A DNA stretch of 41,707 bases from Hyphomicrobiales bacterium (GTDB taxonomy: Bacteria > Pseudomonadota > Alphaproteobacteria > Rhizobiales > Rhodomicrobiaceae). Position 1 is the stretch's first letter. Every line of letters starts with the position of its first letter. The stretch covers positions 1 through 41,707 of the forward strand of contig PMBZ01000129.1 in the NCBI GenBank assembly GCA_003153975.1. The letters are read 5' to 3'. Both the position numbers and the translations under genes were made by a program. Below, piece after piece: positions 8,297 through 25,329 of this stretch. Under the pieces are notes generated by a model. It ran no database searches and was not told the origin of the DNA. It saw only the letters and a list, made by a program, of their open reading frames with translations.

Positions 8297-9764
8297 ACTC
8301 GAAAAGCTGGTTCCGCGCGTCGTTTTCGCAACGCCGTTCCGGCTTTTCGCCATCTACATCTCCCTGTTCTGCGCCGCGGTTGCCGCAACCTTCATCTACG
8401 TCACCGTTTCCATGCAGGGCTTCCTCAATGGCGAGGCCGAAACGGCGGTGCATGCCGAATACGAAGCCCTTGCTGCACATTACCGCGAAGGCGGGCTCGC
8501 CTCGCTCGCCGCCAATATTTCGGAGCATTCGGCCTCTTCCAGCGGCACGCTTTATCTTTTGACCGATAGCGATGGCAGGCGGCTCGCGGGCAACCTCGAC
8601 AACGTCGCGGCTCCCCTGTGGAATTCAGAGGGCGCGGCCCAGTTCGCCTATCGCAAGCGCGAGGATGGCCGGGTCAGCGAGCGGCAGGCGCTTGGCTTCG
8701 TGGCGCGCTTTCCCGGCGGCCTGCACCTTATCGTGGCGCGGGACATCGAGAACCAGGAGACGCTCAAGCGCTTGCTCCGGCGGGCATTTCTCCTGGGCTA
8801 CGCCTTCATCGTCGTCATCGGCATCGCAGGCGGCGTCATGGTGAGCCGCAGCATCTTGCGGCGCGTGGACGCGGCCTCGAACACGGCGCGGGCGATCATG
8901 CAGGGCAATCTTGCCCAGCGCATCCCGGTCACGGGGCGCAAGGACGAGTTCGAGCGCCTGGCCTTGAGCCTGAATACCATGCTCGACCGCATCCAGGACC
9001 TGATGACCGGCCTCAAGGATGTCTCGGACAATATCGCGCACGATCTCAAGACCCCGCTCCACCGCCTGCGCACGCGTGCCGAGCGCGCCCTGCAATCGAG
9101 CCGCTCGCCCGAAAACCTGGCCGACGCGCTGGGCTCGGTCATCGAGGAGGCGGACACGCTCATCCAGACGTTCGACGCGCTCTTAAGCATCGCGCGGCTT
9201 GAAGCCGGCTCCCGCTCGGAAAGCTTCGGGCCACTCAATGTCTGTAGCTTGACTCGCGATGTGGCCGAGTTGTACGAGCCTGCCGCGGAGGAGCGCGGGC
9301 TTTCCTTGCAGCTGTCTTGCGCGGGCGATGTTATGATGTGCGGAGAGAGGCACTTGATCGGGCAGGCGCTGGCGAACCTCTTGGACAACGCGATCAAATA
9401 TGCGGGGCCGCTGGCGGAGGCCCAGGTGCGGGAGGGCGGCGCGCCGCTTGCTGTGAATGTGAGTTTCGAGGACAAAGGGGATACCGTGGATATTGTGGTG
9501 GCCGACCGGGGCCAGGGCATTCCGCAAATCGACCGGGAGCGCGTTCTGCATCGCTTCGTGCGGCTACAGCCTAGCCGCTCCATTCCCGGCAGCGGCCTGG
9601 GGTTGAGCCTCGTGGCCGCGGTGGCGCGCCTGCATGGCGGCTCGATCTCGCTTGAGGATAACGAGCCAGGCCTCAAAGTGCGCCTCTCTCTTAAAAAAAA
9701 TCTGCCGCCGCGGGGTACCATGACCAGCGCCCAGCTTGAGCCGGTGCCGAGCCATGTCGATTAG
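8283..9764 (+). CDS. HAMP-containing sensor histidine kinase
   Basis: Two TM segments, HAMP, H-box DNIAHDLKTPLHRL, N-box NLLDNAIKYA and G-box GSGLGLSLV. Confidence 0.95.
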   Translation: MTATKLEKLVPRVVFATPFRLFAIYISLFCAAVAATFIYVTVSMQGFLNGEAETAVHAEYEALAAHYREGGLASLAANISEHSASSSGTLYLLTDSDGRRLAGNLDNVAAPLWNSEGAAQFAYRKREDGRVSERQALGFVARFPGGLHLIVARDIENQETLKRLLRRAFLLGYAFIVVIGIAGGVMVSRSILRRVDAASNTARAIMQGNLAQRIPVTGRKDEFERLALSLNTMLDRIQDLMTGLKDVSDNIAHDLKTPLHRLRTRAERALQSSRSPENLADALGSVIEEADTLIQTFDALLSIARLEAGSRSESFGPLNVCSLTRDVAELYEPAAEERGLSLQLSCAGDVMMCGERHLIGQALANLLDNAIKYAGPLAEAQVREGGAPLAVNVSFEDKGDTVDIVVADRGQGIPQIDRERVLHRFVRLQPSRSIPGSGLGLSLVAAVARLHGGSISLEDNEPGLKVRLSLKKNLPPRGTMTSAQLEPVPSHVD

Positions 9765-12639
9765 CCCCGGTCCTTTTTCCGTACGCCTGAGCGACGGGCC
9801 GCTCGACGATGAAGCAGGTAGCGGCCGCTACTGGCTTGAACGGATCTGTACTGCGCTGAAGGACCTGCCGCCCTTCCCGGCCCGGGTCGCAAACTTCCTG
9901 AGCGGCGTTTTCGCCGGCTCACCCTACCTCGCGGGCCTCGCGGAACGTTATCCGCAACTCCTCGCCAAAACGCTCTACACGGCCCCGGAAACCCATTTCG
10001 ATGAAATCCTGGCGCGAACGGCACAGGAAGCCGCCCAGGCGGAAGCGCAGCGCGACATCATGCGCATTTTGCGCCAGGGCAAGACCGAGATCGCCTTTCT
10101 GATCGCGCTCGCCGACCTGGCGGGCATTTGGACCGTGGACGAGGTCACGCGCAGGCTGACCGAAGCCGCCGATCTTTTCGTTGGCGCGGCCGTCCGCTTC
10201 CTTTTGAACCGGGCCGCCCAAATGGGCAAGTTCGTGCCCCCCGATCCCGCGAATCCCGAGAATGGCAGCGGGCTTATCATCCTGGCGATGGGCAAATACG
10301 GAGCGCATGAACTCAACTATTCGAGCGACATCGACCTGATCGTCTTTTATTGCCGCGAATGCGCGCGCCTTGGCCCGGCTATCGAGCCCAGCACATTTTT
10401 CGTCCAGCTCACCCGCGACCTCGTCCACATCCTGCAGGAGCGCACGGCGGACGGCTACGTCTTCCGCACCGATCTGCGGCTGCGGCCCGATCCTGGCTCC
10501 ACGCAGGCGGCGATCGCGACCGAGGCCGCTTTCCGCTATTATGAAAACCTGGGCCAGAATTGGGAGCGGGCGGCGCTCATCAAGGCGCGGCCGGTGGCTG
10601 GCGACATTCCCGCAGGCAACGCCTTCCTGAAGGCCTTGGAGCCCTATATCTGGCGGAAATATCTCGACTTTAACGCCATCGCCGACATCCACGCGATGAA
10701 ACGGCAAATCCACGCCGCCAAAGGGCACGAGCGGATTGCGATTGCCGGCCATAACCTGAAGCTCGGGCGCGGCGGCATCCGCGAGATCGAGTTTTTCGTG
10801 CAATCCCAGCAGCTCATCGCGGGAGGCCGGCAGATGGTGCTGCGCACGCGCGAAACGCTGACCGGGCTGAAATTGCTTACGGACTTCCACTGGATCGGCC
10901 CAGCCGTCCGCGACGACCTGACCGTGGCCTACCGCCACTTGCGGCGCCTGGAGCACCGCTTGCAGATGATGGCGGACCAGCAGACTCATACGCTGCCCGC
11001 GCACGAGGAGGAGCTGGCCAAGTTCGCACGCTTTGCGGGCTACCTGAGCCCGGAAGGCTTCTCCGCCGAGTTGCGCAGCCACATGCAGAAGGTGGAGGCG
11101 CATTACGCCGCCCTGTTCGAAAGCACGCCCGAGCTGACCCCGCAGAACGTGAAGGGCAATCTCGTCTTCACGGGCGACGGCGAGGACCCTGGAACGGTGG
11201 ACACGCTGATGAGGCTCGGCTTCAAGAACCCATCCGCGGCAATAGCGGCCGTGAAAGGCTGGCATTACGGCCGTTACCGGGCGATGCGCAGCGAGCGGGC
11301 GCGCGAAATCCTCACCGAGTTTACGCCGGCGCTGTTCGAAGCGCTCGGCGATACCAGCGACGCGGACCTGGCGCTTGGCACCTTCGACGACTTCTTGAAA
11401 GAGGCGCCGAGCGCGCTCCAGCTCTTTTCCATGCTGCGGGCCAATCCGCATCTGTTGCGGCTTATCGCGCAAATCATGGGCTCCGCCCCCCGGCTCGCGC
11501 ACATTTTGAGCCGCCGCCGGCGCCTGATGGATGCGATCCTCGATCCCGGCTATATTGGTGAAAGCCCCTCCGAGGCGGAACTTAAAGCGCTGATCCGGCG
11601 TGAGATTTTCGAGGCCGATAACTACGAGGACCGCCTCGACCGGGCGCGCGTCACGGGCCAGGAGCAGGCCTTTGCCATCGGTGCGCTGCTTCTGTCGCGC
11701 CAGCTTACGCCGGAGCAGGCGGGCGAGGACTATTCGCTAATCGCCGAGGCGGTGATCGAAAGCCTGCTCGACGCGGTGCAGGCGGAATATGGCGGCGCGC
11801 TGCCAGCCCCGGCGGTGATCGGCATGGGCAAGCTGGGAGGGCGCGAGATGGCTGCCTCCTCCGACCTGGACCTGATCGTGGTCTACGACACCCCGCCTGA
11901 AGTGGCTTCGCAAGCCTCGCACCATTACGCGCGGATGACGCAGCGGCTGATCGCGGCACTCTCCGCACCTATGCCCGAAGGCGTGCTCTATGAGGTCGAT
12001 ATGCGGCTCAGGCCTTCCGGCAAGGCCGGGCCGGTGGCCGTGCGGCTCGACGGCTTCCTCGCCTACCAGCTCAAGGAAGCCTGGACCTGGGAGCATCTGG
12101 CGCTGACGCGCGCGCGGCCGGTCGCAGGCCCCGAGGATTTACGGACGCGGCTGACGGAGGATATCCATCAGATCCTCACCATACGCCGCGACCGCGCCAA
12201 AACTGCCGCGGATGTGCACGAAATGCGGGGCCGCATCGAAGCCGAAAAGGGCACCACCGACATCTGGCAGTCGAAGACGCACAGGGGCGGGCTCGTCGAC
12301 GTGGAATTCATCGCGCAGTTCCTCCAGATCGTGCACGCGGCGGACCAGCCCCAAATCTTGAGCACGAACACCTCGCAGGCGCTGCACAATCTCGTCGAGG
12401 CCGGCATTCTGAGCCGGGTGGACGGCAGCGCGCTCTTGAATGCGGTGGAGCTATATCAGGACGTGGCGCACATTCTGCGGCTCTGCACCGAGGGCTCATT
12501 CGACCCCAAGACAGCGCCCAAGGATTTGATCGGGCTTCTCCTGCAAACGACCGGCGAGCCGGACATCGGCCGGCTGGAAGCGCGGCTTCAGGATACCTAT
12601 GCCGGCACCGCGCAACTTTTCACCGAGCTGGTCGCCTGA
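9754..12639 (+). CDS. glnE: bifunctional [glutamine synthetase] adenylyltransferase/deadenylyltransferase
   Basis: Two nucleotidyltransferase motifs: GKYGAHELNYSSDIDLIVFY and GMGKLGGREMAASSDLDLIVVYD. Start at ATG 9754 overlaps the kinase stop codon. Confidence 0.96.
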   Translation: MSISPGPFSVRLSDGPLDDEAGSGRYWLERICTALKDLPPFPARVANFLSGVFAGSPYLAGLAERYPQLLAKTLYTAPETHFDEILARTAQEAAQAEAQRDIMRILRQGKTEIAFLIALADLAGIWTVDEVTRRLTEAADLFVGAAVRFLLNRAAQMGKFVPPDPANPENGSGLIILAMGKYGAHELNYSSDIDLIVFYCRECARLGPAIEPSTFFVQLTRDLVHILQERTADGYVFRTDLRLRPDPGSTQAAIATEAAFRYYENLGQNWERAALIKARPVAGDIPAGNAFLKALEPYIWRKYLDFNAIADIHAMKRQIHAAKGHERIAIAGHNLKLGRGGIREIEFFVQSQQLIAGGRQMVLRTRETLTGLKLLTDFHWIGPAVRDDLTVAYRHLRRLEHRLQMMADQQTHTLPAHEEELAKFARFAGYLSPEGFSAELRSHMQKVEAHYAALFESTPELTPQNVKGNLVFTGDGEDPGTVDTLMRLGFKNPSAAIAAVKGWHYGRYRAMRSERAREILTEFTPALFEALGDTSDADLALGTFDDFLKEAPSALQLFSMLRANPHLLRLIAQIMGSAPRLAHILSRRRRLMDAILDPGYIGESPSEAELKALIRREIFEADNYEDRLDRARVTGQEQAFAIGALLLSRQLTPEQAGEDYSLIAEAVIESLLDAVQAEYGGALPAPAVIGMGKLGGREMAASSDLDLIVVYDTPPEVASQASHHYARMTQRLIAALSAPMPEGVLYEVDMRLRPSGKAGPVAVRLDGFLAYQLKEAWTWEHLALTRARPVAGPEDLRTRLTEDIHQILTIRRDRAKTAADVHEMRGRIEAEKGTTDIWQSKTHRGGLVDVEFIAQFLQIVHAADQPQILSTNTSQALHNLVEAGILSRVDGSALLNAVELYQDVAHILRLCTEGSFDPKTAPKDLIGLLLQTTGEPDIGRLEARLQDTYAGTAQLFTELVA

Positions 12640-12672: not shown

Positions 12673-13743
12673 ATGTCCGAGGGACTTCAAGCCCGCCGCT
12701 GGGTGATGACGGCGGTTGGCGTGCCATTCGAGAGCGAGACGTTCTGGGCGAAGGCCGGCCCCAACGAGGTGGTCATCGGCATTGCCGGCTGCGGCGTCTG
12801 CCACACCGACCTCGGCTATCTTTGCGGCGGCGTCCGCACCAACCATCCGCTGCCGCTGGCGCTTGGGCACGAAATCTCGGGCCGGATCGTCTCGGCAGGC
12901 GAAGGCGCGAACGGCTGGCTCGGCAAGGCGGCGATCGTCCCCGCAGTTCTGCCCTGCGGCGAATGCGGCGTTTGCAAGCGCGGCCTGCCGAACATTTGCC
13001 GCAAGCAGAAGATGCCTGGCAACGACATCCACGGCGGCTTCGCCTCGCACATCGTTGTGCCCGCACGCGGCCTTTGCCCGGTCGACGAGGCGCGGCTGGA
13101 GAGGGCCGGCCTCAGCCTCGCGGACATTTCCGTCGTCGCCGATGCTGTCACCACGCCCTATCAGGCCATCGTACGCGCGGGCGTCCGGCCCGGCTCGCTA
13201 GCCATCGTCGTGGGGGTTGGCGGCGTGGGCGGCTATGCGGCTCAGATAGCGGCAGCTTTCGGTGCCACGGTGGTTGCCGTCGATGTCGATGCGGCGAGGC
13301 TTGAGATGATCGGCAAGCACGGCGCGGCGCTCACGCTCAACGCGCGCGAGCATGATCGGAAGGCTCTGAAAGCGCGCATCAATGAATTCTGCAAAGCGCA
13401 AGACCTGCCGCAGACGGAGTGGTTCATCTTCGAATGCTCCGGCACTCCGTCTGGGCAATCGACCGCGTTCGGACTGCTCACCTTCGGCGCAACCTTAAGC
13501 GTCGTGGGCTTCACCATGGATCAGGTGGAAGTGCGGCTCTCCAACCTCATGGCCTTCGACGCCCGCGCCATCGGCAATTGGGGCTGTCCGCCCGAGCTTT
13601 ACCCTGCCGCGCTCGATCTTGTGCTCGACAAGCGCATCGAGCTTGCCTCCTTCGTCGAGCAGCACCCCCTGGCTGAAATCGAGCGCGTCTTCGCGGATGC
13701 GCACGCGCACCGGCTCACGCGCCGGGCCATCCTCGTTCCTTGA
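12673..13743 (+). CDS. had: 6-hydroxycyclohex-1-ene-1-carbonyl-CoA dehydrogenase (Zn-dependent ADH family)
   Basis: ADH signature [35 protein letters not shown], structural Zn Cys motif [15 protein letters not shown]; context in benzoyl-CoA cluster. Confidence 0.92.
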
Positions 13744-13800
13744 CAAATTCGGCGGCGCTAACGCCCTCTGGGTTCCTTGAGCGCAAATTTGGAGACCACC

Positions 13801-14892
13801 ATGCCGGCGCGGCTCAACGATCACGATATCGTCCCCTTCGAGACGGTCCCTGGCGTCGCTTACGAAAAGCGGCCCGCGCGGCGCCCGGACGGCAGCATCG
13901 CCGAGGGGCTGTTCAACGCCTGGATCTGGCTCGACAATCCGGGGCAGTATAATTCCTACACCACCGATATGGTGAAAGGCACGATCCGCGCTTTTCGCGC
14001 CGCCTCGAATGCGCGCGACGTGGTGGCGGCGGTGTTGACGGGCGTGGGCGGCAAGGCGTTCTGCACGGGCGGCAACACCAAGGAATACGCGGGATACTAC
14101 GCCGGCAATCCGCAGGAATACCGGCAATATATGCGGCTCTTCAACGACATGGTGTCGTCCATCTTGACTTGCGATAAGCCCGTGATCGCGCGCGTCAACG
14201 GCATGCGCATCGGCGGCGGCCAGGAAATCGGCATGGCCTGCGACTTTAGCATCGCGCAGGATCTCGCCCGCTTCGGCCAAGCCGGCCCGAAGCACGGTTC
14301 GGCGGCCATCGGCGGCGCGACGGACTTCCTGCCCGTGATGATCGGCTGCGAGCGTGCGATGGAGTCCGGCACGCTGTGCGAGCCCTGGTCCGCGCACAAG
14401 GCTTACCGCCTCGGCATGATTATGGACATCGTGCCGGCGCTGAAAGTGGACGGCAAGTTCGTCGCCAATCCGCTGGTCGAGACGGAGCGCTATCTCGACG
14501 AATACGGCCGGATCGTCCACGGCGAGCCCAAAACCGGCGAGGCGCTGGAGCAAGGCAAGGCGGTTCTGGCGCGCGGCACCGTCGATCTGACACTCCTCGA
14601 TGAAAAGGTCGAAGTGCTCTGCTCGAAGCTTCTCATGACCTTCCCCGAATGCCTGACCAAGAGCTTCGAGGAACTGCGCAAGCCCAAGCTCGACGCCTGG
14701 AACCGCAATAAGGAAAACAGCCGCGCCTGGCTCGCGCTCAATATGATGGCCGAGGCGAAGACCGGCTTCCGCGCCTTCAACGAGGGGCCGAAGAACAAGC
14801 GCGAAATCGATTTCGTGGCGCTGCGGCAGAAGCTGGCCAAGGGCGAGCCCTGGACCGAGGCGCTCACGGAAGAGCTTCTGCCGAAGGCGTGA
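13801..14892 (+). CDS. oah: 6-oxocyclohex-1-ene-1-carbonyl-CoA hydrolase
   Basis: Long crotonase-family protein (NAWIWLDNPGQYNSYTTDMVKG..., GGNTKEYAGYYAGNPQEYRQYMRLFNDMV, MRIGGGQEIGMACDF); Oah-like; sits beside had and dch. Confidence 0.92.
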   Translation: MPARLNDHDIVPFETVPGVAYEKRPARRPDGSIAEGLFNAWIWLDNPGQYNSYTTDMVKGTIRAFRAASNARDVVAAVLTGVGGKAFCTGGNTKEYAGYYAGNPQEYRQYMRLFNDMVSSILTCDKPVIARVNGMRIGGGQEIGMACDFSIAQDLARFGQAGPKHGSAAIGGATDFLPVMIGCERAMESGTLCEPWSAHKAYRLGMIMDIVPALKVDGKFVANPLVETERYLDEYGRIVHGEPKTGEALEQGKAVLARGTVDLTLLDEKVEVLCSKLLMTFPECLTKSFEELRKPKLDAWNRNKENSRAWLALNMMAEAKTGFRAFNEGPKNKREIDFVALRQKLAKGEPWTEALTEELLPKA

Positions 14893-14900
14893 GCCAAACT

Positions 14901-15008
14901 CCCTCTCCCCTTGGGGAGAGGGTTGGGGTGAGGGGGTCTTTGCAAGGTTTGTACTTGCGGCGAATCCCCCCTCTTCCTGTCCTTCTCCCCGAGGGGAGAA
15001 GGGACGCT
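14901..15008. repeat. Intergenic palindromic (REP-like) repeats between oah and dch
   Basis: CCCTCTCCCC-TT-GGGGAGAGGG (14901-14922) and CCTTCTCCCC-GA-GGGGAGAAGG (14981-15002). Confidence 0.8.
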
Positions 15009-15060
15009 AACACAACGGCCGCGGATACAAGCGGCTCGATTAACCCTTTGAGTAAGCACG

Positions 15061-15828
15061 ATGAGTGATCCGGTTAGAGTCTGGTTCGAGCGCGATGGGC
15101 GTCTCTTGCGCCTGCGGCTCAACCGCCCCAAGGCGAACGTGCTCGACGCCGCGATGATAAGCGCGCTCGACGCCGCGCTTGCGGAGCATGGCGGCAAGCC
15201 CGGCCTGCTTGGCATCCTGATCGACGCGGAAGGCCCGCATTTCTCGTTCGGCGTGAGCGTCGAGGAACATTTGCTGGCCCAGTGCGCTGCGATGCTTAGC
15301 GGTTTCCACCGCCTTGTCCTGCGCGTGCTCGGCTCGCCGGTCCCGGTGCTGATGGCCGTGCGCGGGCAATGCCTCGGCGGCGGGCTTGAGCTGATTTCGG
15401 CCGGGCACCTCATTTTCGCAAGCCCCGATGCGCGGCTCGGCCAGCCCGAAATCCAGATCGGCGTGTTCGCACCTGCCGCTTCCTGCCTGCTGCCGGAGCG
15501 GATCGGCTTGGCGGCGGCGGAAGACATGCTGATCTCGGGCCGCTTACTCGCGGCTGAAGAGGCTTTCCGCGCCGGTCTGCTCACGGAGGTTGCGGCCGAT
15601 CCGGAAGCCGCCGCGCTCGAATACTTCGACAAACACCTCGCACCCAAAAGCGCAAGCTCGCTCCGGTTCGCGGTCCGCGCGGCACGCGAAGCGCTTGTGA
15701 ACCGCGTCACGGCGCGGCTTGCCGAGGTTGAGCACCTCTATCTTACGGAACTCATGGGCACGCGCGACGCCGCCGAAGGCCTCGAAGCCTTCCTCGCCAA
15801 GCGCCCGGCCCAATGGAGCGGTACCTGA
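15061..15828 (+). CDS. dch: cyclohexa-1,5-dienecarbonyl-CoA hydratase (enoyl-CoA hydratase/isomerase family)
   Basis: Crotonase fold (LRLNRPKANVLDAAMISALDAAL, VRGQCLGGGLELISAGHLIFASPDARLGQPEIQIGVFAP) in a bcr operon, with 1-nt TGATG overlap to bcrC. Confidence 0.9.
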   Translation: MSDPVRVWFERDGRLLRLRLNRPKANVLDAAMISALDAALAEHGGKPGLLGILIDAEGPHFSFGVSVEEHLLAQCAAMLSGFHRLVLRVLGSPVPVLMAVRGQCLGGGLELISAGHLIFASPDARLGQPEIQIGVFAPAASCLLPERIGLAAAEDMLISGRLLAAEEAFRAGLLTEVAADPEAAALEYFDKHLAPKSASSLRFAVRAAREALVNRVTARLAEVEHLYLTELMGTRDAAEGLEAFLAKRPAQWSGT

Positions 15829-17012
15829 TGGAGGATACGTCTCCCTCGAAAACAGCGGAAATCGCCGCGCGCTGCGAGGAAATATTCACCGATCTCGACT
15901 TCAACGCGGCGCGGAAATGGAAAGCCGGAAAGCCCGGCCGCAAGGTCATCGGCTTCATGCCCTTCTACGTGCCGCGCGAACTGATCCACGCCGCAGGTGC
16001 GCTGCCGCTCGGCATCCTGGGCGGTGGCGACCAACTCGAAGTGATCCACGGCGACGCCTATTTCCAGAGCTACATCTGCCGCATCCCGCGCTCGACCGTC
16101 GAGCTTGGCATTTCCGGCCGCCTCGATTTCGTGGACGGCATGCTGTTCCCGTCGATCTGCGACGTGATCCGCAACCTGTCTGGCATGTGGAAGCTCATGT
16201 TTCCGAGGGTTGCGGCGCGCTATGTGGACCTGCCGCAAAACTTCGACGGCGAGGTTGGCGGCGAGTTCTACCGCTCCGGCCTGCAAGAGCTGCGCCACTG
16301 GCTGGCGGACATCGCGAGCCATCCGGTAACGGACGAGGCCATCCGCGCTTCCGTCGCGGTTTACAACAAGAGCCGCGCGCTCATCCGCGAACTGTACGCC
16401 CTGCGGGCCGCGGAGCCGTGGAACGTGCCATCGGCGGAAGTTTACCTGCTGCTGCGTGCCGGACTGGTGCTGCCGGTCGAAGAGCACAACGAGCTGGTGC
16501 GCACTTACATCGACGCGGCCCGGAGCCGGGACCGGCCGTTCAAGGACAACTCCCGCGTGGTCGTAAGCGGCGTGTTCTGCGAGCAGCCGCCGCTGAACCT
16601 CATCAAGTCCATCGAGCTTTCGGGCTGCTACATCGTCGGCGACGACTTCATGCTAGTCACGCGCTGGGAAAAATCGGACACGGCCGAAGACGGCGATCCG
16701 ATTGCAGCGCTCGCCAGCGCCTACCTGCACAACTCGCTGTCCACCTCGGCGAAGTACGAGCCGGATGCGGCCAGGAAAGGCGCCTACCTCATCGAGAGTG
16801 TGCGGAAGAACCGCGCCGAGGGCGTGATTTTCGCGATGCCGAGCTTCTGCGACCCGGCGCTGCTCGAACGGCCCATGCTGCAGAACGCGCTCAAGGCAGC
16901 AGGCATCCCATTCATCGCGTTCAAATACGCCGAGAACTCGGGGCAGATGCAGCCGATCCGCGAGCAGGCAGGGACGTTTGCGGATTCGATCAAGCTTTGG
17001 AGCGGGGAGTGA
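15828..17012 (+). CDS. bcrC: benzoyl-CoA reductase subunit C
   Basis: 2-hydroxyacyl-CoA dehydratase D-component family: GRKVIGFMPFYVPRELIHAAGALPLGILGGGDQLEVIHGDAYFQSYICRIPRS; operon position. Confidence 0.93.
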   Translation: MEDTSPSKTAEIAARCEEIFTDLDFNAARKWKAGKPGRKVIGFMPFYVPRELIHAAGALPLGILGGGDQLEVIHGDAYFQSYICRIPRSTVELGISGRLDFVDGMLFPSICDVIRNLSGMWKLMFPRVAARYVDLPQNFDGEVGGEFYRSGLQELRHWLADIASHPVTDEAIRASVAVYNKSRALIRELYALRAAEPWNVPSAEVYLLLRAGLVLPVEEHNELVRTYIDAARSRDRPFKDNSRVVVSGVFCEQPPLNLIKSIELSGCYIVGDDFMLVTRWEKSDTAEDGDPIAALASAYLHNSLSTSAKYEPDAARKGAYLIESVRKNRAEGVIFAMPSFCDPALLERPMLQNALKAAGIPFIAFKYAENSGQMQPIREQAGTFADSIKLWSGE

Positions 17013-17059
17013 CGTTGCCACGACGTTGCAAAGCAGGTCGCGGCCTTCCCCCTCTCTCC

Positions 17060-17077
17060 GAGGGGAGAAGGGACGCT
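17060..17077. repeat. REP-like half-repeat GAGGGGAGAAGGGACGCT between bcrC and bcrB
   Basis: Identical 18-mer to 14991-15008 (oah/dch junction). Confidence 0.75.
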
Positions 17078-17118
17078 GTGGCAACCGTGGCCTGAAGCAT
17101 CTTAGGACGGAACAAAAC

Positions 17119-18432
17119 ATGAGCACGATCATCACGCATCCGAAGGTTGCCAAGGCCTGGGTGTTCAAGGACGCCTCGATGGCCAAGCAGAAGGAGATGA
17201 TGAACCGGCACTACGGCCGGTTGGCTGACGCGCCCCAGACCGGCGAGAAGGTGGCTTCGACCTTCGTGCCCGGCAATCTCAACGAGCTGTTGATGTGCTT
17301 CGGCTTCGCCGTCAACCTGCCCGAGATCAACGCCATCCAGAACGGCCTTCGGAAGACCAGCGGCAACTTCGTGATGGAAGCCGAGAAGATCGGCCATTCC
17401 GAGGACGTCTGCACCTATGTGAAGTCCGACATCGGCATGATGGCGCGCGGCAATATCGGCCCGAACGGCCGCAGGCTGCCGGACCCGGACGTGCTGCTGC
17501 TCTCCTGTACCGGCTGCTTCACCTTCATGAAGTGGTTCGAGCTGTTGCGGGAACGGTACCGCTGCGAAACCATCATGTTCCACACGCCCTATATGGCGGA
17601 CGGCAAGATCGCGCCGGACATGGTCAAATACATGGTCAAGCAGCTTGAGAAGGATGTCATTCCCAAGCTCGAACGGGTCTCCGGCGTCAAGTTCGACATC
17701 GACCGCCTGCGCGAATACCTCAAGAAGTCGGCGCGGGCCGAGGACGATCTCGTCTGGGTGCTGCAATCTGCCAAGGCCACGCCATCGCCCATCGACGCCT
17801 ATTTCGGCGGCATCTACTACATCGGCCCGATCTTCGGCGCCTTCCGCGGCACGGACGACGCCATCGAGTATTACAAATTCCTGCGCGAGGAGATCGAAGG
17901 CCGGCTCGCCCAGGGCAAAGGCCCAGTGACGCCCGGCGGCGATATGGGCAAGGAGCGTTACCGGCTCGTGGTGGAAGGTCCGCCGAACTACACGAACTTC
18001 CGGCAGTTCTGGAAGATGTTCTACGAGGAAGGCGCCGTGGTGGTGGCTTCGAGCTACACCAAGGTTGGCGGCACCTACGATTTCGGTTTCCGCCACAACC
18101 CGGACAAACCGCTGGAGAGCCTCGCGGAATACTGCCTCAACGTCTACACCAACCGGAGCCTGCCGATGCGCGTGGACATGCTCGAAAACTACATCGGCGA
18201 GTATGAGGCGGACGGGCTGCTCATCAACTCGATCAAGAGCTGCAACAGCTTCTCGGCCGGCCAGCTTCTGATCATGCGCGAGGTGGAGCGCCGCACCGGC
18301 AAGCCCGCGGCGTTCATCGAAACCGATCTCGTCGACCCTCGCTACTTCTCGCCCGCCAATGTGAAGAACCGGCTCGAAAGCTACTTCCAGATGATCGAGC
18401 AGAAGCGCGCCCGCGCCCGCGCCGCCGGGTGA
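17119..18432 (+). CDS. bcrB: benzoyl-CoA reductase subunit B
   Basis: 2-hydroxyacyl-CoA dehydratase D-component family; KQKEMMNRHYGRLADAPQTGEKVASTFVPGNLNELLMCFGF...PPNYTNFRQFWKMFYEEGAVVVASSYTKVGG. Confidence 0.94.
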   Translation: MSTIITHPKVAKAWVFKDASMAKQKEMMNRHYGRLADAPQTGEKVASTFVPGNLNELLMCFGFAVNLPEINAIQNGLRKTSGNFVMEAEKIGHSEDVCTYVKSDIGMMARGNIGPNGRRLPDPDVLLLSCTGCFTFMKWFELLRERYRCETIMFHTPYMADGKIAPDMVKYMVKQLEKDVIPKLERVSGVKFDIDRLREYLKKSARAEDDLVWVLQSAKATPSPIDAYFGGIYYIGPIFGAFRGTDDAIEYYKFLREEIEGRLAQGKGPVTPGGDMGKERYRLVVEGPPNYTNFRQFWKMFYEEGAVVVASSYTKVGGTYDFGFRHNPDKPLESLAEYCLNVYTNRSLPMRVDMLENYIGEYEADGLLINSIKSCNSFSAGQLLIMREVERRTGKPAAFIETDLVDPRYFSPANVKNRLESYFQMIEQKRARARAAG

Positions 18433-18471
18433 CGAAGAGATAGAGAGACGAAGGTGTGCAGGTTTCAAGGC

Positions 18472-18577
18472 CCCCTCACCCCAGCCCTCTCCCGCGAGGG
18501 GAGAGGGAGCAGGCTGTGCCCGTTGAGAGGGCGTCCCCCTCTCCCCTCGCGGGAGAGGGGACAGGGGTGAGGGGGGC
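18472..18577. repeat. Long near-perfect inverted repeat (arms ~37 bp) between bcrB and bcrA
   Basis: Arm 1 CCCCCTCACCCCAGCCCTCTCCCGCGAGGGGAGAGGG; arm 2 is nearly its reverse complement (CCCTCTCCCCTCGCGGGAGAGGGGACAGGGGTGAGGGGG). Confidence 0.85.
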
Positions 18578-18608
18578 TTGAGACATGGATTTCAGAGAAA
18601 GTTGGCAC

Positions 18609-19910
18609 ATGAAGACTTTCATCGGCATCGACCTGGGCTCGACCACGGCAAAGGCCGTGCTGCTCGACGAGAACCGGACCGTGATCGGGCGCGGCATCAC
18701 CAACTCGCGCTCGAACTACGGCACGGCGGCCCGCGTCGCCGCCGGCGAAGCGCGGATCGACGCGCGCTTCACGCTGCTGCGCCGTTCGCTTGCCCCGGCC
18801 GCGGGCGAGGCGGGCGCGGCTGGGTTCCTCGCCGCTCTGGAGCGCGCCTTCCGCCTTGAGCAGTTCCTGGAGCAACTCGCCGATCTTGAGGAGACATGCC
18901 TCGGCCAGCTCAAGAGCGAGCGCTTCGCGGCAACGGCGGGGGCCTTGAGCGAGGTGCTGAAGGCGGTGTTCCAGCGCGTGCGCGAGGAGGCGCCGGAGCT
19001 TTACGCACCGGGTGCCAGGCGCAAGCCGGACTTCTTCCGCGATATCGCCGGCTCGCGCTTCCACGCACATTCGGAGATTGCGGCCAAAGAGGCGGGCGTG
19101 GCGCTCGATACGCTGCTCGACGCCTACGACAAATCCATCGTCGAGGTGGAGAACCGGCCGCCGTCAGGCGATTTGTCCGCGAAACTCAAGCGCGCCGCCG
19201 CCCGCGCCGCCGAAAGCGAGGGCGATGCCTCGCACCTACCGCAGGACCGGATAGAGGACGCGCTCGGCATCGAGCTGGAGGAGACCTACCTTGTTGGCAC
19301 CGGCTATGGCCGCGCGACACTGCCCTTTTCGAAGGAGCACATCCGCTCGGAGATCCTTTGCCACGGCCTCGGCGCGCATATGATGTACCCCAGAACCCGC
19401 ACCGTGCTCGACATCGGCGGGCAGGACACCAAGGGTATCCAGGTAGACGGGAACGGCATCGTCGAGAACTTCCAGATGAACGACCGCTGCGCGGCGGGCT
19501 GCGGCCGCTATCTGGGCTATATCGCGGACGAGATGAACATGGGCCTGCACGAACTGGGGCCGCTCGCCATGAAGTCCAACCGGCCCGCGCGCATCAACTC
19601 CACCTGCACCGTGTTCGCGGGCGCGGAACTGCGCGACCGGCTTTCGCTGGGCGAGAAGCGCGAGGACATCCTGGCAGGCCTGCACCGCGCCATCATCCTG
19701 CGCGCCATCTCCATCGTCTCGCGCTCGGGTGGGGTGACGAACGAGTTCACCTTCACCGGCGGCGTCGCCAAGAACGATGCGGCGGTGCGCGAACTGAGGA
19801 AGCTCGTCGAGGAGAACTACGGCGGCGTCACCATCAACATCGACCCCGATTCCATCTACACGGGCGCGCTCGGTGCGGCGGAATTCGCCCGGCGCGCCGC
19901 GGGCGCTTGA
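18609..19910 (+). CDS. bcrA: benzoyl-CoA reductase subunit A (BadF/BcrA ATPase)
   Basis: ASKHA ATPase: [80 protein letters not shown]. Start at ATG 18609 preferred over 18585. Confidence 0.94.
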
Positions 19911-19922
19911 GGAGGTACCTGT

Positions 19923-20846
19923 ATGCCCATTACCGCTGGGATCGACGTTGGCAGCGGCGCCATCAAGGTGGTGCTTTTCGAGGTGGAAGACGGCAGCGAG
20001 ACATTGCGCTCAAGTAGCGCGGCGCGCGATAGCGCCGGGAACTCGCGCTCAAGTAGCACGGAGCGCGGAAGCGCCGGAAAGTGGCTTGGCAAGCGGGTGG
20101 AGCGCGTGCGCCAGCGCGATCCGCTTGTGCTCGCCGCGCAGGTCTACGACGGCCTGCTTGCCGGAAATGGCCTGAAGCGCTCCGATGTTGGCTACTGCGC
20201 AACCACGGGCGAGGGCGAAGCGCTCGACTTTCACACCGGCTATTTCTATTCGATGACGGCGCATGCGCGCGGCGCCATTTATCTGCGGCCGGGCGCATGC
20301 GCGGTGCTCGATGTTGGTGCATTGCACGGCCGCGCGATCCGCATCGACGGGCGCGGCAAGGTGCTCACCTACAAGATGACGAGCCAATGCGCCTCGGGCT
20401 CGGGCCAATTTCTTGAAAACATCGCGCGCTATCTGGGCATCGCGCAGGGCGAGATCGGCAGCCTGTCGAAACAGGGCACGAACCCTGAGCAGGTTTCTGG
20501 CATCTGCGCGGTGCTGGCCGAAACCGATTCAATCAACATGGTCTCGCGCGGCATCGCGGCGCCCAACATCCTGCGCGGCATCCACGAATCCATGGCCAGC
20601 CGGCTTGCCAAGCTCCTGAAAACCATCGGCAAGCTGGAGGGCGGCGCGGTGCAGATGACCGGCGGCCTTGCCCTGGACGACGGCCTGGTCAGCGCCATGC
20701 AAGCCGCGCTTGAGAAAGAGAAGCTGGCGGTGCCGTTGGAAACGCACGCCGACGCGATCTATGCGGGCGCCATCGGGGCCGCACTGTGGGGTGCGTTCCG
20801 CTGGGAGAAGCTGCAACTCATGGGCGTCGCCGCCAGCGCCGCTTGA
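19923..20846 (+). CDS. bcrD: benzoyl-CoA reductase subunit D (BadG/BcrD ATPase), with in-frame tandem repeat insertion
   Basis: ITAGIDVGSGAIKVVLFEVE, CATTGEGEALDFHTGYFYSMTAHARGAIYL, CASGSGQFLENIARYLGIA, MTGGLALDDGL. Confidence 0.94.
   Translation: MPITAGIDVGSGAIKVVLFEVEDGSETLRSSSAARDSAGNSRSSSTERGSAGKWLGKRVERVRQRDPLVLAAQVYDGLLAGNGLKRSDVGYCATTGEGEALDFHTGYFYSMTAHARGAIYLRPGACAVLDVGALHGRAIRIDGRGKVLTYKMTSQCASGSGQFLENIARYLGIAQGEIGSLSKQGTNPEQVSGICAVLAETDSINMVSRGIAAPNILRGIHESMASRLAKLLKTIGKLEGGAVQMTGGLALDDGLVSAMQAALEKEKLAVPLETHADAIYAGAIGAALWGAFRWEKLQLMGVAASAA
20006..20083 (+). repeat. Two tandem 39-bp units (32/39 identical) inside bcrD, encoding LRSSSAARDSAGN / SRSSSTERGSAGK
   Basis: Direct comparison of 20006-20044 with 20045-20083; second copy carries GCGCTC-N10-GAGCGC inverted repeat. 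Confidence 0.85.
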
Positions 20847-20926
20847 CCGCTCGTAAAGCGGCCGGGGGCTTCGGGGGGGGCATGCAACCCGATTTGCTAT
20901 CGCATCCTCAGTGGAAGGCAAAAACG

Positions 20927-21883
20927 ATGATTTCAAAATCCGCAAGCGCCGGCTCGGTCCGGTCTCTCGTGCCGGACGATTTCGAGCGTGTGGTCCAGAT
21001 TGACCGCGAGCTTTCGGGCATGTCGCGGCGCGGCTTTTTCGAGAAGCGGCTGCGCTGCGCCAAGGCGTATCCCAAAGCCTTCGTCTCGCTGGGTTACGAA
21101 GAGGACGGCGTGCTTGAGGGCTTCGTCATGGCCCACCTGCTGGACGGCGAGTTCGGCGGCACCGAGCCCGCGGGCATCCTCGACGCCATCGGCACCACGG
21201 AGAAAGTCCGTGGCCATGGCGGCGCGCGGGCGCTGCTGGGCCAGCTCATCGAAAAGCTTAAGGGCCGCGGCGCGATGGAGTTCAGGACGCAGCTTCTCTG
21301 GCAGGACCAGGCGCTGATCCAGTTCTTTGCCTCGGCCGGCTTCGTTCTGTCGCCGCGTCTGGTCCTTGGCCGGACTTGCTCAAGGATGGAGGGCGAGGTT
21401 GCTCCGGGCGTCTTGCGCCAAAACGGCCAGGAGGATCGGCCACACGATCGTGTGCCCGTCCGCACGCTCAATGCGGCGGATCTGTCCGCGGTGGTTGCCA
21501 TCGACCGGCGCATCACCGGGCGCGACCGCACGGCCTACTACCGGAGCAAGTTCGACGAGGTGCTGAACCAAACGGGCATCCGCATGTCGACGATCGCCAC
21601 GGCGGACGAAACAACCGCCGGCTTCATCATGGCCCGCGTCGATTACGGCGAATTCGGCATAGCCGGGCCGGAGGCGGTGATCGATACCATCGGCGTCGAT
21701 CCCGATCTGCAAAGGCGGGACATCGCCTCCGCGCTCTTGGCGGTGCTGCTTGGAAATCTGCAGTCGCTCAAGGTCGAGACGGTGCGCACCGAGGTGCCGT
21801 GGAACAGCTACACGCTGCTTGCATTCCTAGAAGCGCGCGGCTTCCGCCCGGCGCAGCGGCTAAATCTCTCCCGCTCTTTGTGA
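20927..21883 (+). CDS. tandem GNAT-fold N-acetyltransferase (two GNAT domains)
   Basis: Two halves each start with VR-L--AD(D/L)---VV-IDR and contain an acetyl-CoA-loop region (TTEKVRGHGGARALLGQLIE; GVDPDLQRRDIASALLAVLL). Upstream starts at 20882 or 20786 are possible. Confidence 0.85.
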   Translation: MISKSASAGSVRSLVPDDFERVVQIDRELSGMSRRGFFEKRLRCAKAYPKAFVSLGYEEDGVLEGFVMAHLLDGEFGGTEPAGILDAIGTTEKVRGHGGARALLGQLIEKLKGRGAMEFRTQLLWQDQALIQFFASAGFVLSPRLVLGRTCSRMEGEVAPGVLRQNGQEDRPHDRVPVRTLNAADLSAVVAIDRRITGRDRTAYYRSKFDEVLNQTGIRMSTIATADETTAGFIMARVDYGEFGIAGPEAVIDTIGVDPDLQRRDIASALLAVLLGNLQSLKVETVRTEVPWNSYTLLAFLEARGFRPAQRLNLSRSL

Positions 21884-22085: not shown

Positions 22086-22362
22086 CTATTCGTCCTCCTC
22101 GCTTGGCACCCGGTACATCCGCCTGCCCGCGGAGCCTGCCTTCAGCCAAGCCCAAATTAGCGCGTCTTACCAGTCAGCCATCCTCGTCTTCGCCCTGTGG
22201 TTGCCGTTAATATAAAGGCATTATCAATAAAGGGAAAGATAGACACACATTTTCTTAACCACCTAACCGCCGGAATGGCCACGCTTCGAAAAGGCTCGGG
22301 GAAGCTGGGGCACTGAAGGAGGCGTGCATTGCGCCGTTTCCGCGAATGCCTATAGTTGGCGC

Positions 22363-25329
22363 ATGACGAATCTCGCTCACGATGGCCGTCCAAGGCCCGC
22401 GCAACACGAAGGTGCAGCAGCCATTCCGCCCGGCAGCCGCGTTTTTCTCATCGACGGCTCCGGCTACATTTTCCGCGCCTTCCACGCGCTGCCGCCTTTG
22501 ACGCGGCCTTCCGATGGGCTGCCGGTTGGCGCGGTGCACGGCTTCTGCAACATGCTGTGGAAGCTTTTGCGCGAGGCCAAGAACGGGAAGCGGCCCACGC
22601 ACATCGCGGTGATTTTCGACGCCGGCAGGGTGAGCTTCCGCAACGAAATTTACCCCGACTACAAGGCGCACCGGCCCGAGACGCCGCCGGAGCTTGTGCC
22701 GCAATTCCCGCTGATCCGCGACGCGGTGCGCGCCTTCAACGTGGCCTGCGTCGAGCAGAAGGGCTTCGAGGCCGACGACATCATCGCGACCTATGCGCGA
22801 GAAGCCGCCGAGGCTGGCGGCGAGGTGGTGATCGTCTCCTCCGACAAAGACCTGATGCAACTCGTGCGCCCCGGCGTCTCCCTGCTCGACACCATGAAGA
22901 ACAAGGAGATCGCCGAGCCGGAGGTGCTTGAGAAATTCGGGGTGACGCCGGACAAGGTCGTGGATGTGCAGGCGCTCGCGGGCGACAGCACCGACAATGT
23001 GCCGGGCGTGCCGGGCATCGGCATCAAGACCGCCGCCGAACTGATCCGCGAATATGGCGATCTCGAAACGCTGCTCGCCAAGGCGCCGCTCATCAAGCAG
23101 AAGATGCGGCGCGAGCGGCTGATCGAATTCGCGGAGCAGGCACGGATTTCGCGGCGGCTGGTGGAACTGGACAGACACGTACCCGTGGAGCTGCCGCTCG
23201 ATCATGCCGCCGTCGAGGAGCCGGACCCGCATGCGCTTATGGCGTTCATGCAGGCGATGGAATTCAATTCGCTGACCAAGCGGGTCGCTGACGCCTTCGG
23301 AGTCGAGCCGCCCGCGCCGGGCGACGCGCCGCCACGCGCCGAGCCTATGCCGCAAGCGCCGGCATCCGCCGATGCACCTGCGGAAAAGGCCGCGCCTGTA
23401 TCCGGCCCGGTGGCAGAGCTGCGCCGCGTGCAGGATTGGCTGCGGTCCATCCCGTTCAACCACGCCGGCTACACGCAGATCACGGATCTGCAAACGCTCG
23501 ACGGCTGGATCGCCGCCGCCACGGAGCAAGGCTTTGTCGCCTTCGATACGGAGACGACGGACCTGGACGCCGTGGCCGCGCGGCTTTGCGGCGTGGCGCT
23601 CGCCCTTGAGCCGAACCGCGCCTGCTACATCCCGCTCGCGCACCGCGCCGGCGACGGCCTCGACCTTGCCGGCATAGGCCAGATCGAGCAGCTCCCGCTG
23701 GACCAGGCGATCCCGCGCCTCAAGGCACTGCTCGAAGACGAGAGCGTGCTCAAGATCGGGCAGAACATCAAATACGATCTCGTGGTCATGCGCCGCTATG
23801 GCGTGCGTCTTTGGCCTTACGACGACACCATGCTGATGGCCTATGCGGTGGACCAGGGCCGGGGCGGTCTCGCGGGCTTCGGCATGGACGAACTGTCCAA
23901 GCGCCATCTCGGGCACACGCCCATCGCGTTTACCGATGTCGCGGGCAAGGGCAAGACGCAGGTCACGTTCGATTGCGTGCCCGTGGACAAGGCCACCGAA
24001 TATTCCGCCGAGGATGGGGACGTAACCCTGCGCCTGTGGCACCTGTTCAAGGCGCGGCTCGCGACGGAAGGCATGGCGGCGGTCTACGAGACGCTGGAGC
24101 GGCCGATGCCTCTCATCCTGGGCGAAATGGAGCTTGCGGGAGTGCGCGTGGATCGCGCGGTGCTCTCGCGGCTTTCGGGCGAATTCGCGCAAAGCCTCGC
24201 GCGCTTCGAGGACGAGATCTATGCGCTCGCGGGAGGGCGCTTTAATATCGGCTCGACGATGCAAGTCGCGGATCTGCTGTTCGGCAAATTCGGCCTGCCG
24301 GGCGCCAAGAAGACCGCGACGGGCAAATGGAGCACCGGCGCGAAGGTGCTGGAAGAGCTGGTTTCGAGCGAGGAGTTGACCGAGGATCAGCGCCGCCTGC
24401 CTGCCAAGCTCCTGGAATGGCGCCAGCTCGCCAAGCTCAAGAGCACCTACACGGACTCGCTGCCCCAGCATATCGACGCGGAGACGGGCCGCATCCACAC
24501 CTCCTATGCGCTGGCCTCGACCTCGACGGGCCGGCTCTCCTCGACCGAGCCGAACCTGCAAAACATCCCCGTCCGCACCAAGGAAGGCCGGCAAATCCGC
24601 AGCGCCTTCATCGCGGAGCCCGGAAGCGCGCTTATCTCCGCCGACTACAGCCAGATCGAGCTGCGCGTGCTCGCCCACATGGCGGACATTCCCGAGCTGA
24701 AGCGCGCCTTCGCCGAGGGGCTCGACATCCACGCCATGACGGCGTCGGAGATGTTCGGCGTGCCCATCAAGGACATGCCCAGCGAAATCCGCCGCCGCGC
24801 CAAGGCCATCAATTTCGGCATCGTCTACGGCATTTCGGCCTTCGGCCTGGCGCAGCAGCTCGGCATCGGGCGCGGCGAGGCAGGCGACTACATCGCCAAG
24901 TATTTCGAGCGCTTCCCCGGTATCCGCACCTATATGGACGCGACGCGCGCCAAGGTCCGCGAGGACGGCTATGTCGAGACGCTGTTCGGGCGGAAGATCT
25001 ATTTCCCGGAGATCGACACGCCGCAGCGGAATATGCGCGCGTTCTTCGAGCGGGCGGCCATCAACGCGCCGATCCAGGGGACGGCGGCGGATATTCTGCG
25101 GCGGGCGATGATCCGGATGCCGGAGGCGCTGGCGAAGGCGAAGCTTAACGCGCGGATGCTGCTGCAAGTGCACGACGAGCTTGTGTTCGAGGCGCCGGAT
25201 GGCGAGGTGGAGGCCACGATCAAGGCCGCGGTCCGGGTTATGGAGCGCGCAGCCGAGCCCGCCGTGGCGTTCTCCGTGCCGCTGAAGGTGGACGCCCGCG
25301 CTGCCCACAACTGGGATGAGGCGCATTGA
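22363..25329 (+). CDS. polA: DNA polymerase I (5'-3' exonuclease, 3'-5' exonuclease and polymerase domains)
   Basis: FLIDGSGYIFRAFHALPPL, FDTETTDLDA, STGRLSSTEPNLQNIPVRT, SADYSQIELRVLAH and LLQVHDELVFEAP. Confidence 0.97.
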   Translation: MTNLAHDGRPRPAQHEGAAAIPPGSRVFLIDGSGYIFRAFHALPPLTRPSDGLPVGAVHGFCNMLWKLLREAKNGKRPTHIAVIFDAGRVSFRNEIYPDYKAHRPETPPELVPQFPLIRDAVRAFNVACVEQKGFEADDIIATYAREAAEAGGEVVIVSSDKDLMQLVRPGVSLLDTMKNKEIAEPEVLEKFGVTPDKVVDVQALAGDSTDNVPGVPGIGIKTAAELIREYGDLETLLAKAPLIKQKMRRERLIEFAEQARISRRLVELDRHVPVELPLDHAAVEEPDPHALMAFMQAMEFNSLTKRVADAFGVEPPAPGDAPPRAEPMPQAPASADAPAEKAAPVSGPVAELRRVQDWLRSIPFNHAGYTQITDLQTLDGWIAAATEQGFVAFDTETTDLDAVAARLCGVALALEPNRACYIPLAHRAGDGLDLAGIGQIEQLPLDQAIPRLKALLEDESVLKIGQNIKYDLVVMRRYGVRLWPYDDTMLMAYAVDQGRGGLAGFGMDELSKRHLGHTPIAFTDVAGKGKTQVTFDCVPVDKATEYSAEDGDVTLRLWHLFKARLATEGMAAVYETLERPMPLILGEMELAGVRVDRAVLSRLSGEFAQSLARFEDEIYALAGGRFNIGSTMQVADLLFGKFGLPGAKKTATGKWSTGAKVLEELVSSEELTEDQRRLPAKLLEWRQLAKLKSTYTDSLPQHIDAETGRIHTSYALASTSTGRLSSTEPNLQNIPVRTKEGRQIRSAFIAEPGSALISADYSQIELRVLAHMADIPELKRAFAEGLDIHAMTASEMFGVPIKDMPSEIRRRAKAINFGIVYGISAFGLAQQLGIGRGEAGDYIAKYFERFPGIRTYMDATRAKVREDGYVETLFGRKIYFPEIDTPQRNMRAFFERAAINAPIQGTAADILRRAMIRMPEALAKAKLNARMLLQVHDELVFEAPDGEVEATIKAAVRVMERAAEPAVAFSVPLKVDARAAHNWDEAH

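Follow-up and report, generated by a model that had tools for sequence, protein, structure and literature searches.

The contig PMBZ01000129.1 (41,707 nucleotides; assembly GCA_003153975.1) of a Hyphomicrobiales bacterium of the family Rhodomicrobiaceae was analyzed over its full length and is hereafter called the window. It carries at positions 12673–21883, between glnE and polA, the genes had-oah-dch-bcrCBAD followed by a gene for a GNAT acetyltransferase, all on the + strand. We are confident in the reading that this locus is a class I (ATP-dependent) benzoyl-coenzyme A (CoA) reductase operon with a Dch-Had-Oah module, which looks like an old mosaic and whose GNAT probably serves the same pathway. 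Judged from the sequence, the gene set for anaerobic breakdown of benzoate-type aromatic rings probably works in this host. The arrangement had been proposed in a preliminary description of the DNA and is borne out, since all eight open reading frames (ORFs) are intact and co-oriented, with every frame open:

12673–13743, + strand: had, 6-hydroxycyclohex-1-ene-1-carbonyl-CoA dehydrogenase (TIGR03201, 558.8 bits, cut-off 338.65)
13801–14892, + strand: oah (bamA type), 6-oxocyclohex-1-ene-1-carbonyl-CoA hydratase/hydrolase (TIGR03200, 658.3 bits, cut-off 464.45)
15061–15828, + strand: dch, cyclohexa-1,5-dienecarbonyl-CoA hydratase (TIGR03189, 389.6 bits, cut-off 292.5)
15828–17012, + strand: bcrC, benzoyl-CoA reductase subunit C (TIGR02263, 704.8 bits, cut-off 421.15)
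17119–18432, + strand: bcrB, benzoyl-CoA reductase subunit B (TIGR02260, 844.4 bits, cut-off 486.55)
18609–19910, + strand: bcrA, benzoyl-CoA reductase subunit A, ATPase/activator type (TIGR02259, 774.2 bits, cut-off 578)
19923–20846, + strand: bcrD, benzoyl-CoA reductase subunit D, carrying an insert of some 26 residues (TIGR02261, 452.6 bits, cut-off 312.85)
20927–21883, + strand: tandem (two-domain) GNAT acetyltransferase, distinct from BadL (Pfam Acetyltransf_1 and Acetyltransf_7)

For oah, an alternative upstream TTG start at 13777 is possible. The bcrC start at 15828, read from the sequence, overlaps the dch stop, and a start at 15813 is also possible.

Enzyme identities were assigned using NCBIfam equivalog models, each with its own cut-off. 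All seven enzymes score far over these cut-offs and, therefore, a chance match is no concern; the four reductase subunits and Dch, Had and Oah are what the preliminary description had taken them for. The alternative that the bcr-like genes encode 2-hydroxyacyl-CoA dehydratases and their activators, or a double-cubane reductase, draws on the HGD-D and BcrAD_BadFG Pfam families, which are common to all these enzymes, and on the matches of BcrC to HadC (185 bits) and to the double-cubane model (113 bits). We consider its probability negligible, because these scores are far under their own cut-offs (700 and 350 bits, respectively) and far under those of the Bcr equivalogs (705–844 bits for BcrC and BcrB), the ATPase part consists of two separate subunits (BcrA and BcrD), and the operon also encodes Dch, Had and Oah. 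Likewise, the reductases of the Azoarcus bzd type and of the mbd type share the HGD-D and BcrAD families with the window, whereas the BzdN, BzdO and BzdQ models remain far under cut-off in it. Neither of the two outcomes that the preliminary description had named as fatal to it, namely Bcr subunits falling outside benzoyl-CoA reductase or Oah, Had and Dch being unrelated proteins, was observed. Finally, comparison of the conserved Cys and His of each enzyme with 34–43 relatives (41–43 for BcrA–D) indicates that every fully conserved Cys is kept in BcrA–D, Dch, Oah and Had; those of BcrA–D that would bind iron-sulfur clusters were assigned by analogy with the family.

The predicted route is that from the 1,5-diene to the 6-oxo compound, as in Thauera and Magnetospirillum, because Dch, Had and Oah are encoded above cut-off and BadI was not found (no match at E ≤ 1e-60 in the genome, which is estimated to be 88.8% complete); the preference already expressed for this route over that of BadI is thus upheld. 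BcrAD would hydrolyze ATP and hand low-potential electrons to BcrBC, which would reduce benzoyl-CoA to cyclohexa-1,5-diene-1-carbonyl-CoA. Dch would then hydrate the diene, Had would oxidize the product to the 6-oxo compound, and Oah, by water addition and ring opening, would yield 3-hydroxypimelyl-CoA. Both the expression of the operon and benzoyl-CoA as its substrate are presumed. That the main substrate is instead another aryl-CoA, e.g., 3-methylbenzoyl-CoA, could be argued from the closest solved structure to BcrC, which is MbdN of 3-methylbenzoyl-CoA reductase (E 1.2e-57). However, this ranking says little, because no PDB chain of Bcr itself was among the matches, while the equivalog models matched are those of Bcr and the genome encodes a member of the benzoate-CoA ligase family; hence we regard another main substrate as very unlikely.

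The window contains no ligase, as first described, but a benzoate-CoA ligase, sought in the rest of the genome as that description had advised, is found on contig C7 (689 bits, cut-off 375) and would supply the substrate. Beside it lie genes for an acyl-CoA dehydrogenase that shares its family profile with one of the Magnetospirillum fulvum cluster, for a MaoC protein, and for an NfnAB/GltA-like electron-transfer protein with a ferritin domain, which could reduce ferredoxin and whose gene contains an assembly gap. In a genome of 4.77 Mb and 268 contigs, the window makes up all of contig C61. Its membership in the genome is supported by the 68–92% identity of glnE and its neighbors to those of congeners and by a repeat family that it has in common with more than a dozen other contigs.

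Comparison of gene order over 80 loci places the operon among its relatives. The order had-oah-dch-bcrCBAD recurs at many of these loci, in Thauera aminoaromatica, Azoarcus taiwanensis, M. fulvum and many other Proteobacteria, and the operon is thus an ordinary example of a familiar, widespread kind. It has the seven enzymes, the order and the route of the Thauera/Magnetospirillum bcr operon, but differs from it in that the ligase is encoded on another contig, neither BadM nor BadL has a match in the window or on C7, palindromes occupy intergenic gaps, BcrD bears its insert, and a fused tandem GNAT stands directly behind bcrD. The bad cluster of Rhodopseudomonas palustris (badDEFGAB with badHIK) also encodes a class I reductase, and the window BcrB groups in a Hyphomicrobiales clade that includes BadI-bearing genomes; in contrast to that cluster, the window has Dch-Had-Oah without BadI, and the ligase is outside the operon. 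In 2013, BamA of Rhodomicrobium vannielii was grouped with those of Thauera, Magnetospirillum and Geobacter (PMC3794298). In a search of 18 bcrB genomes of the order, host included, Oah was found in 12, BadI above cut-off in 6, and both in one. The latter, G254 (loci L132 and L138), thus combines the key ring-opening enzymes of both routes in one genome. Use of aromatics by R. vannielii was reportedly described by Wright and Madigan in 1991 (cited in PMC11946414). Plasmid-borne relatives were not found: Oah had no match at E ≤ 1e-80 in 72,556 plasmids.

The GNAT gene that closes the operon was named in the preliminary description and left unexplained there; it turns out to encode a two-domain protein, linked to bcrB and distinct from BadL. 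Its AlphaFold2 model displays a confident tandem fold (pLDDT, i.e., predicted local distance difference test, 84), whose closest PDB entries are tandem GNATs with various functions (7q3a, 2wpw and MshD); for this reason the comparison gives the fold and not the substrate. In a survey of 398 genomes of the order, with tandem GNAT scored at E ≤ 1e-15, bcrB is present in 21 genomes; the tandem GNAT occurs in 18 of these and in none of the other 377 (Fisher p 2e-28, ignoring relatedness). The three bcrB genomes devoid of it are the congeners G001–G003. Furthermore, the GNAT pair is visible in the flanks of 21/54 named bcrB loci, including those of Thauera, Azoarcus, Magnetospirillum, Sedimenticola and Anaeromyxobacter. 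It is either fused or encoded by two adjacent genes (window 20927–21883, L013, L018, L026, L028, L029, L173 and others), with N before C in every case. A C-type GNAT domain adjoins oah also in a metagenome-assembled genome (MAG) of Geobacteraceae (L070).

BadL, the GNAT of the R. palustris bad cluster, is needed for growth on benzoate and clusters with the Rrf2 regulator BadM (PMC6191541). The window GNAT shares with BadL the fold and the linkage to benzoate genes, and is about 28% identical to a BadL-like protein of M. fulvum. Nevertheless, we find it improbable that it is BadL, an aminobenzoate acetyltransferase derepressing the bad operon via BadM. BadL is a single-domain protein adjoining BadM, and single-domain GNATs stand beside an Rrf2 gene in M. 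fulvum, G084, G254, Rhodoblastus and the congeners. In the GNAT tree, the N domains, the C domains and the BadL-like proteins each fall on one side of a branch, the split of the Rrf2-adjacent, BadL-like family having a support of 100. Moreover, several genomes carry both the tandem and the BadL-like GNAT, and BadM has no match in the window or on C7. Identity with BadL was rejected on the separate branch and the missing BadM match.

In the literature searched, we found neither a description of the tandem pair nor a function for it. Geobacter metallireducens bamK, annotated as an ‘N-acetyltransferase’ and induced on benzoate (PMC1924859), could be a relative. The terminal GNAT probably serves the same pathway, and most likely would acetylate a small aromatic amine or, as a form of control, a pathway enzyme; this role is the least certain element of our proposal. 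We give about even chances to the broader view that, in Proteobacteria and Myxococcota alike, anaerobic benzoyl-CoA metabolism has the tandem GNAT as a dedicated part, which would add to BadL a second step of acetylation control or detoxification and which this order would have retained wherever class I benzoyl-CoA reductase occurs, the Rhodomicrobium-type congeners excepted.

Three of four congeners (G001–G003) have this set of seven genes in an identical order, while the fourth has no PF06050 match at all. The shared order would be expected if the cluster had been inherited vertically in the genus along with those of the congeners. Yet the congener genes are only about 61–79% identical to those of the window and lie at a different locus, with the ligase downstream, BadM-BadL alongside and no tandem GNAT. 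They also occupy other branches. In the BcrB tree the three congeners group with Magnetospirillum and other Rhodospirillaceae (support 98), whereas the window falls in a Hyphomicrobiales clade (support 100), its nearest rows being Rhodoblastus, G254 and two Rhodopila MAGs. In the Oah tree the congeners again join Rhodospirillaceae (support 96), whereas the window keeps its Rhodoblastus, G254 and Rhodopila MAG neighbors (support 95). Vertical inheritance therefore appears most improbable, and these trees show that the window cluster and that of the three bcr-bearing congeners are not orthologs by descent. An apparent BcrC-BcrB fusion in congeners (an open frame of 876 residues) was discarded, as a stop codon lies between the two genes. 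G001 also has, at C1:3929413–3933663 (L105), a further system that the other congeners were not seen to carry: two more HGD-D proteins flank an activator-like protein about 43% identical to the C-terminal part of BcrA.

In the Oah tree, the group formed by the window and these neighbors sits with Acidicaldus and other acidophile-type clusters (support 99), apart from other Hyphomicrobiales, and the approximately unbiased (AU) test rejects placing Oah with Hyphomicrobiales (p 0.0002). Conversely, AU tests reject an acidophile placement of BcrB (p 0.00009) and BcrA (p 0.0008), while BcrC and BcrD fall on the acidophile side (98.9 and 97.8, respectively). R. palustris was not among the rows of these trees. 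Overall, the cluster looks mosaic, with Hyphomicrobiales-type bcrB and bcrA in an operon with acidophile-type oah and, probably, bcrC and bcrD. The simplest reading would be an old bcrB-bcrA exchange, common to the window, Rhodoblastus, G254 and the Rhodopila MAGs. The ‘old or scarless acquisition’ first suggested is compatible with this lack of orthology, although neither a donor nor a date can be assigned.

The genes flanking the operon are the following:

9736–12639, + strand: glnE, upstream flank (NF010706, 1207.7 bits)
22324–25329, + strand: polA, downstream flank (Pfam DNA_pol_A, 508 bits)

The end of glnE (12639) and had are 33 bp apart. A block of DegP, response regulator, kinase and glnE is kept in 4/4 congeners, none of which has polA in the 6–12 kb after glnE; in G001 and G004 the genes that follow look, by sequence inspection, like zwf, pgl, edd and eda. 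Since these relatives do not share the glnE-polA neighborhood, the data do not demonstrate a clean insertion into it, and the simple insertion between these genes stated in the preliminary description finds no support in the four congeners. A recent island of odd composition was rejected, as the GC content is flat over the operon (0.61–0.66) and equal to that of its surroundings. In agreement with the same description, the window contains no tRNA, and no integrase or transposase was found among its ORFs run against Pfam, a scan that left out some small ORFs. There was also no Rfam match in the window. Elsewhere in the window, the segment 26001–27028 has 44% GC, compared to about 62% around it, and contains an ORF of 289 residues without a Pfam match; it is possibly a recent import.

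Some of our results weigh against the proposed reading. No sigma-70-like promoter was found for the operon by a scan that covers alphaproteobacterial promoters poorly, and KorA has no match in the window or on C7, KorAB, ferredoxin and regulators not having been searched genome-wide. The AU test does not reject the alternative placement for BcrC (p 0.058) or BcrD (p 0.17), the mosaic groups were named after seeing the trees, and these were quick trees with MAGs among their rows. The pathway role of the GNAT is proposed from co-occurrence uncorrected for relatedness. Finally, about 26 residues of BcrD form an insert without counterpart in about 50 relatives, and at its residue 107 (20241–20243) the only fully conserved His missing from the operon (His in 41/41 relatives) is replaced by Tyr. 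The last two features, together with the repeats listed here, raise the question of whether the cluster is decaying or inactive:

13753–13789, − strand: one copy of a repeat like a repetitive extragenic palindrome (REP), in the had-oah gap (repeat search)
14905–15008, no strand: GC-rich palindromic repeats in the oah-dch gap (repeat search)
17050–17077, no strand: GC-rich palindromic repeat in the bcrC-bcrB gap, 93% like 14981–15008
18459–18587, no strand: long inverted repeat in the bcrB-bcrA gap, 47-nt arms, 77% complementary
20004–20076, + strand: two REP-like repeat copies, tandem and in frame inside bcrD (repeat search)

GC-rich palindromes thus fill the oah-dch (168 bp), bcrC-bcrB (106 bp) and bcrB-bcrA (176 bp) gaps, while in congener G001 bcrC, bcrB, bcrA and bcrD are separated by only 3, 14 and 21 bp; accordingly, the first description of the operon as ‘compact’ holds only in part. 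The two copies in bcrD account for the approximately 26 additional residues. This repeat is of the REP type (a palindrome of 20–40 bp with many interspersed copies) and its hairpin folds. The REP-like hairpin repeat, 30–39 bp long, has 19 copies in the genome, compared to one with a reversed-pattern control and 0–2 in congeners. Against decay, the eight frames are open, the conserved Cys are retained, the same repeat lies in frame also in housekeeping rimP and in the biosynthetic gene cobN, and the BcrD of locus L071 has an unrelated insert in the same loop. An in-frame copy is also present in a TIR-FGE gene (loci for this repeat: L189, L197, L198). Intragenic REPs are known in other bacteria (PMC3733652). 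We therefore judge a decaying or inactive cluster to be very unlikely and favor an operon that probably works.

Taken together, two unrelated versions of this seven-gene operon are present in one genus, and an exchange of single operon genes (bcrB, bcrA) between lineages seems to have taken place even though the encoded subunits have to fit their partners. In addition, a GNAT family of no known function tracks benzoyl-CoA reductase almost perfectly, a lead worth following.

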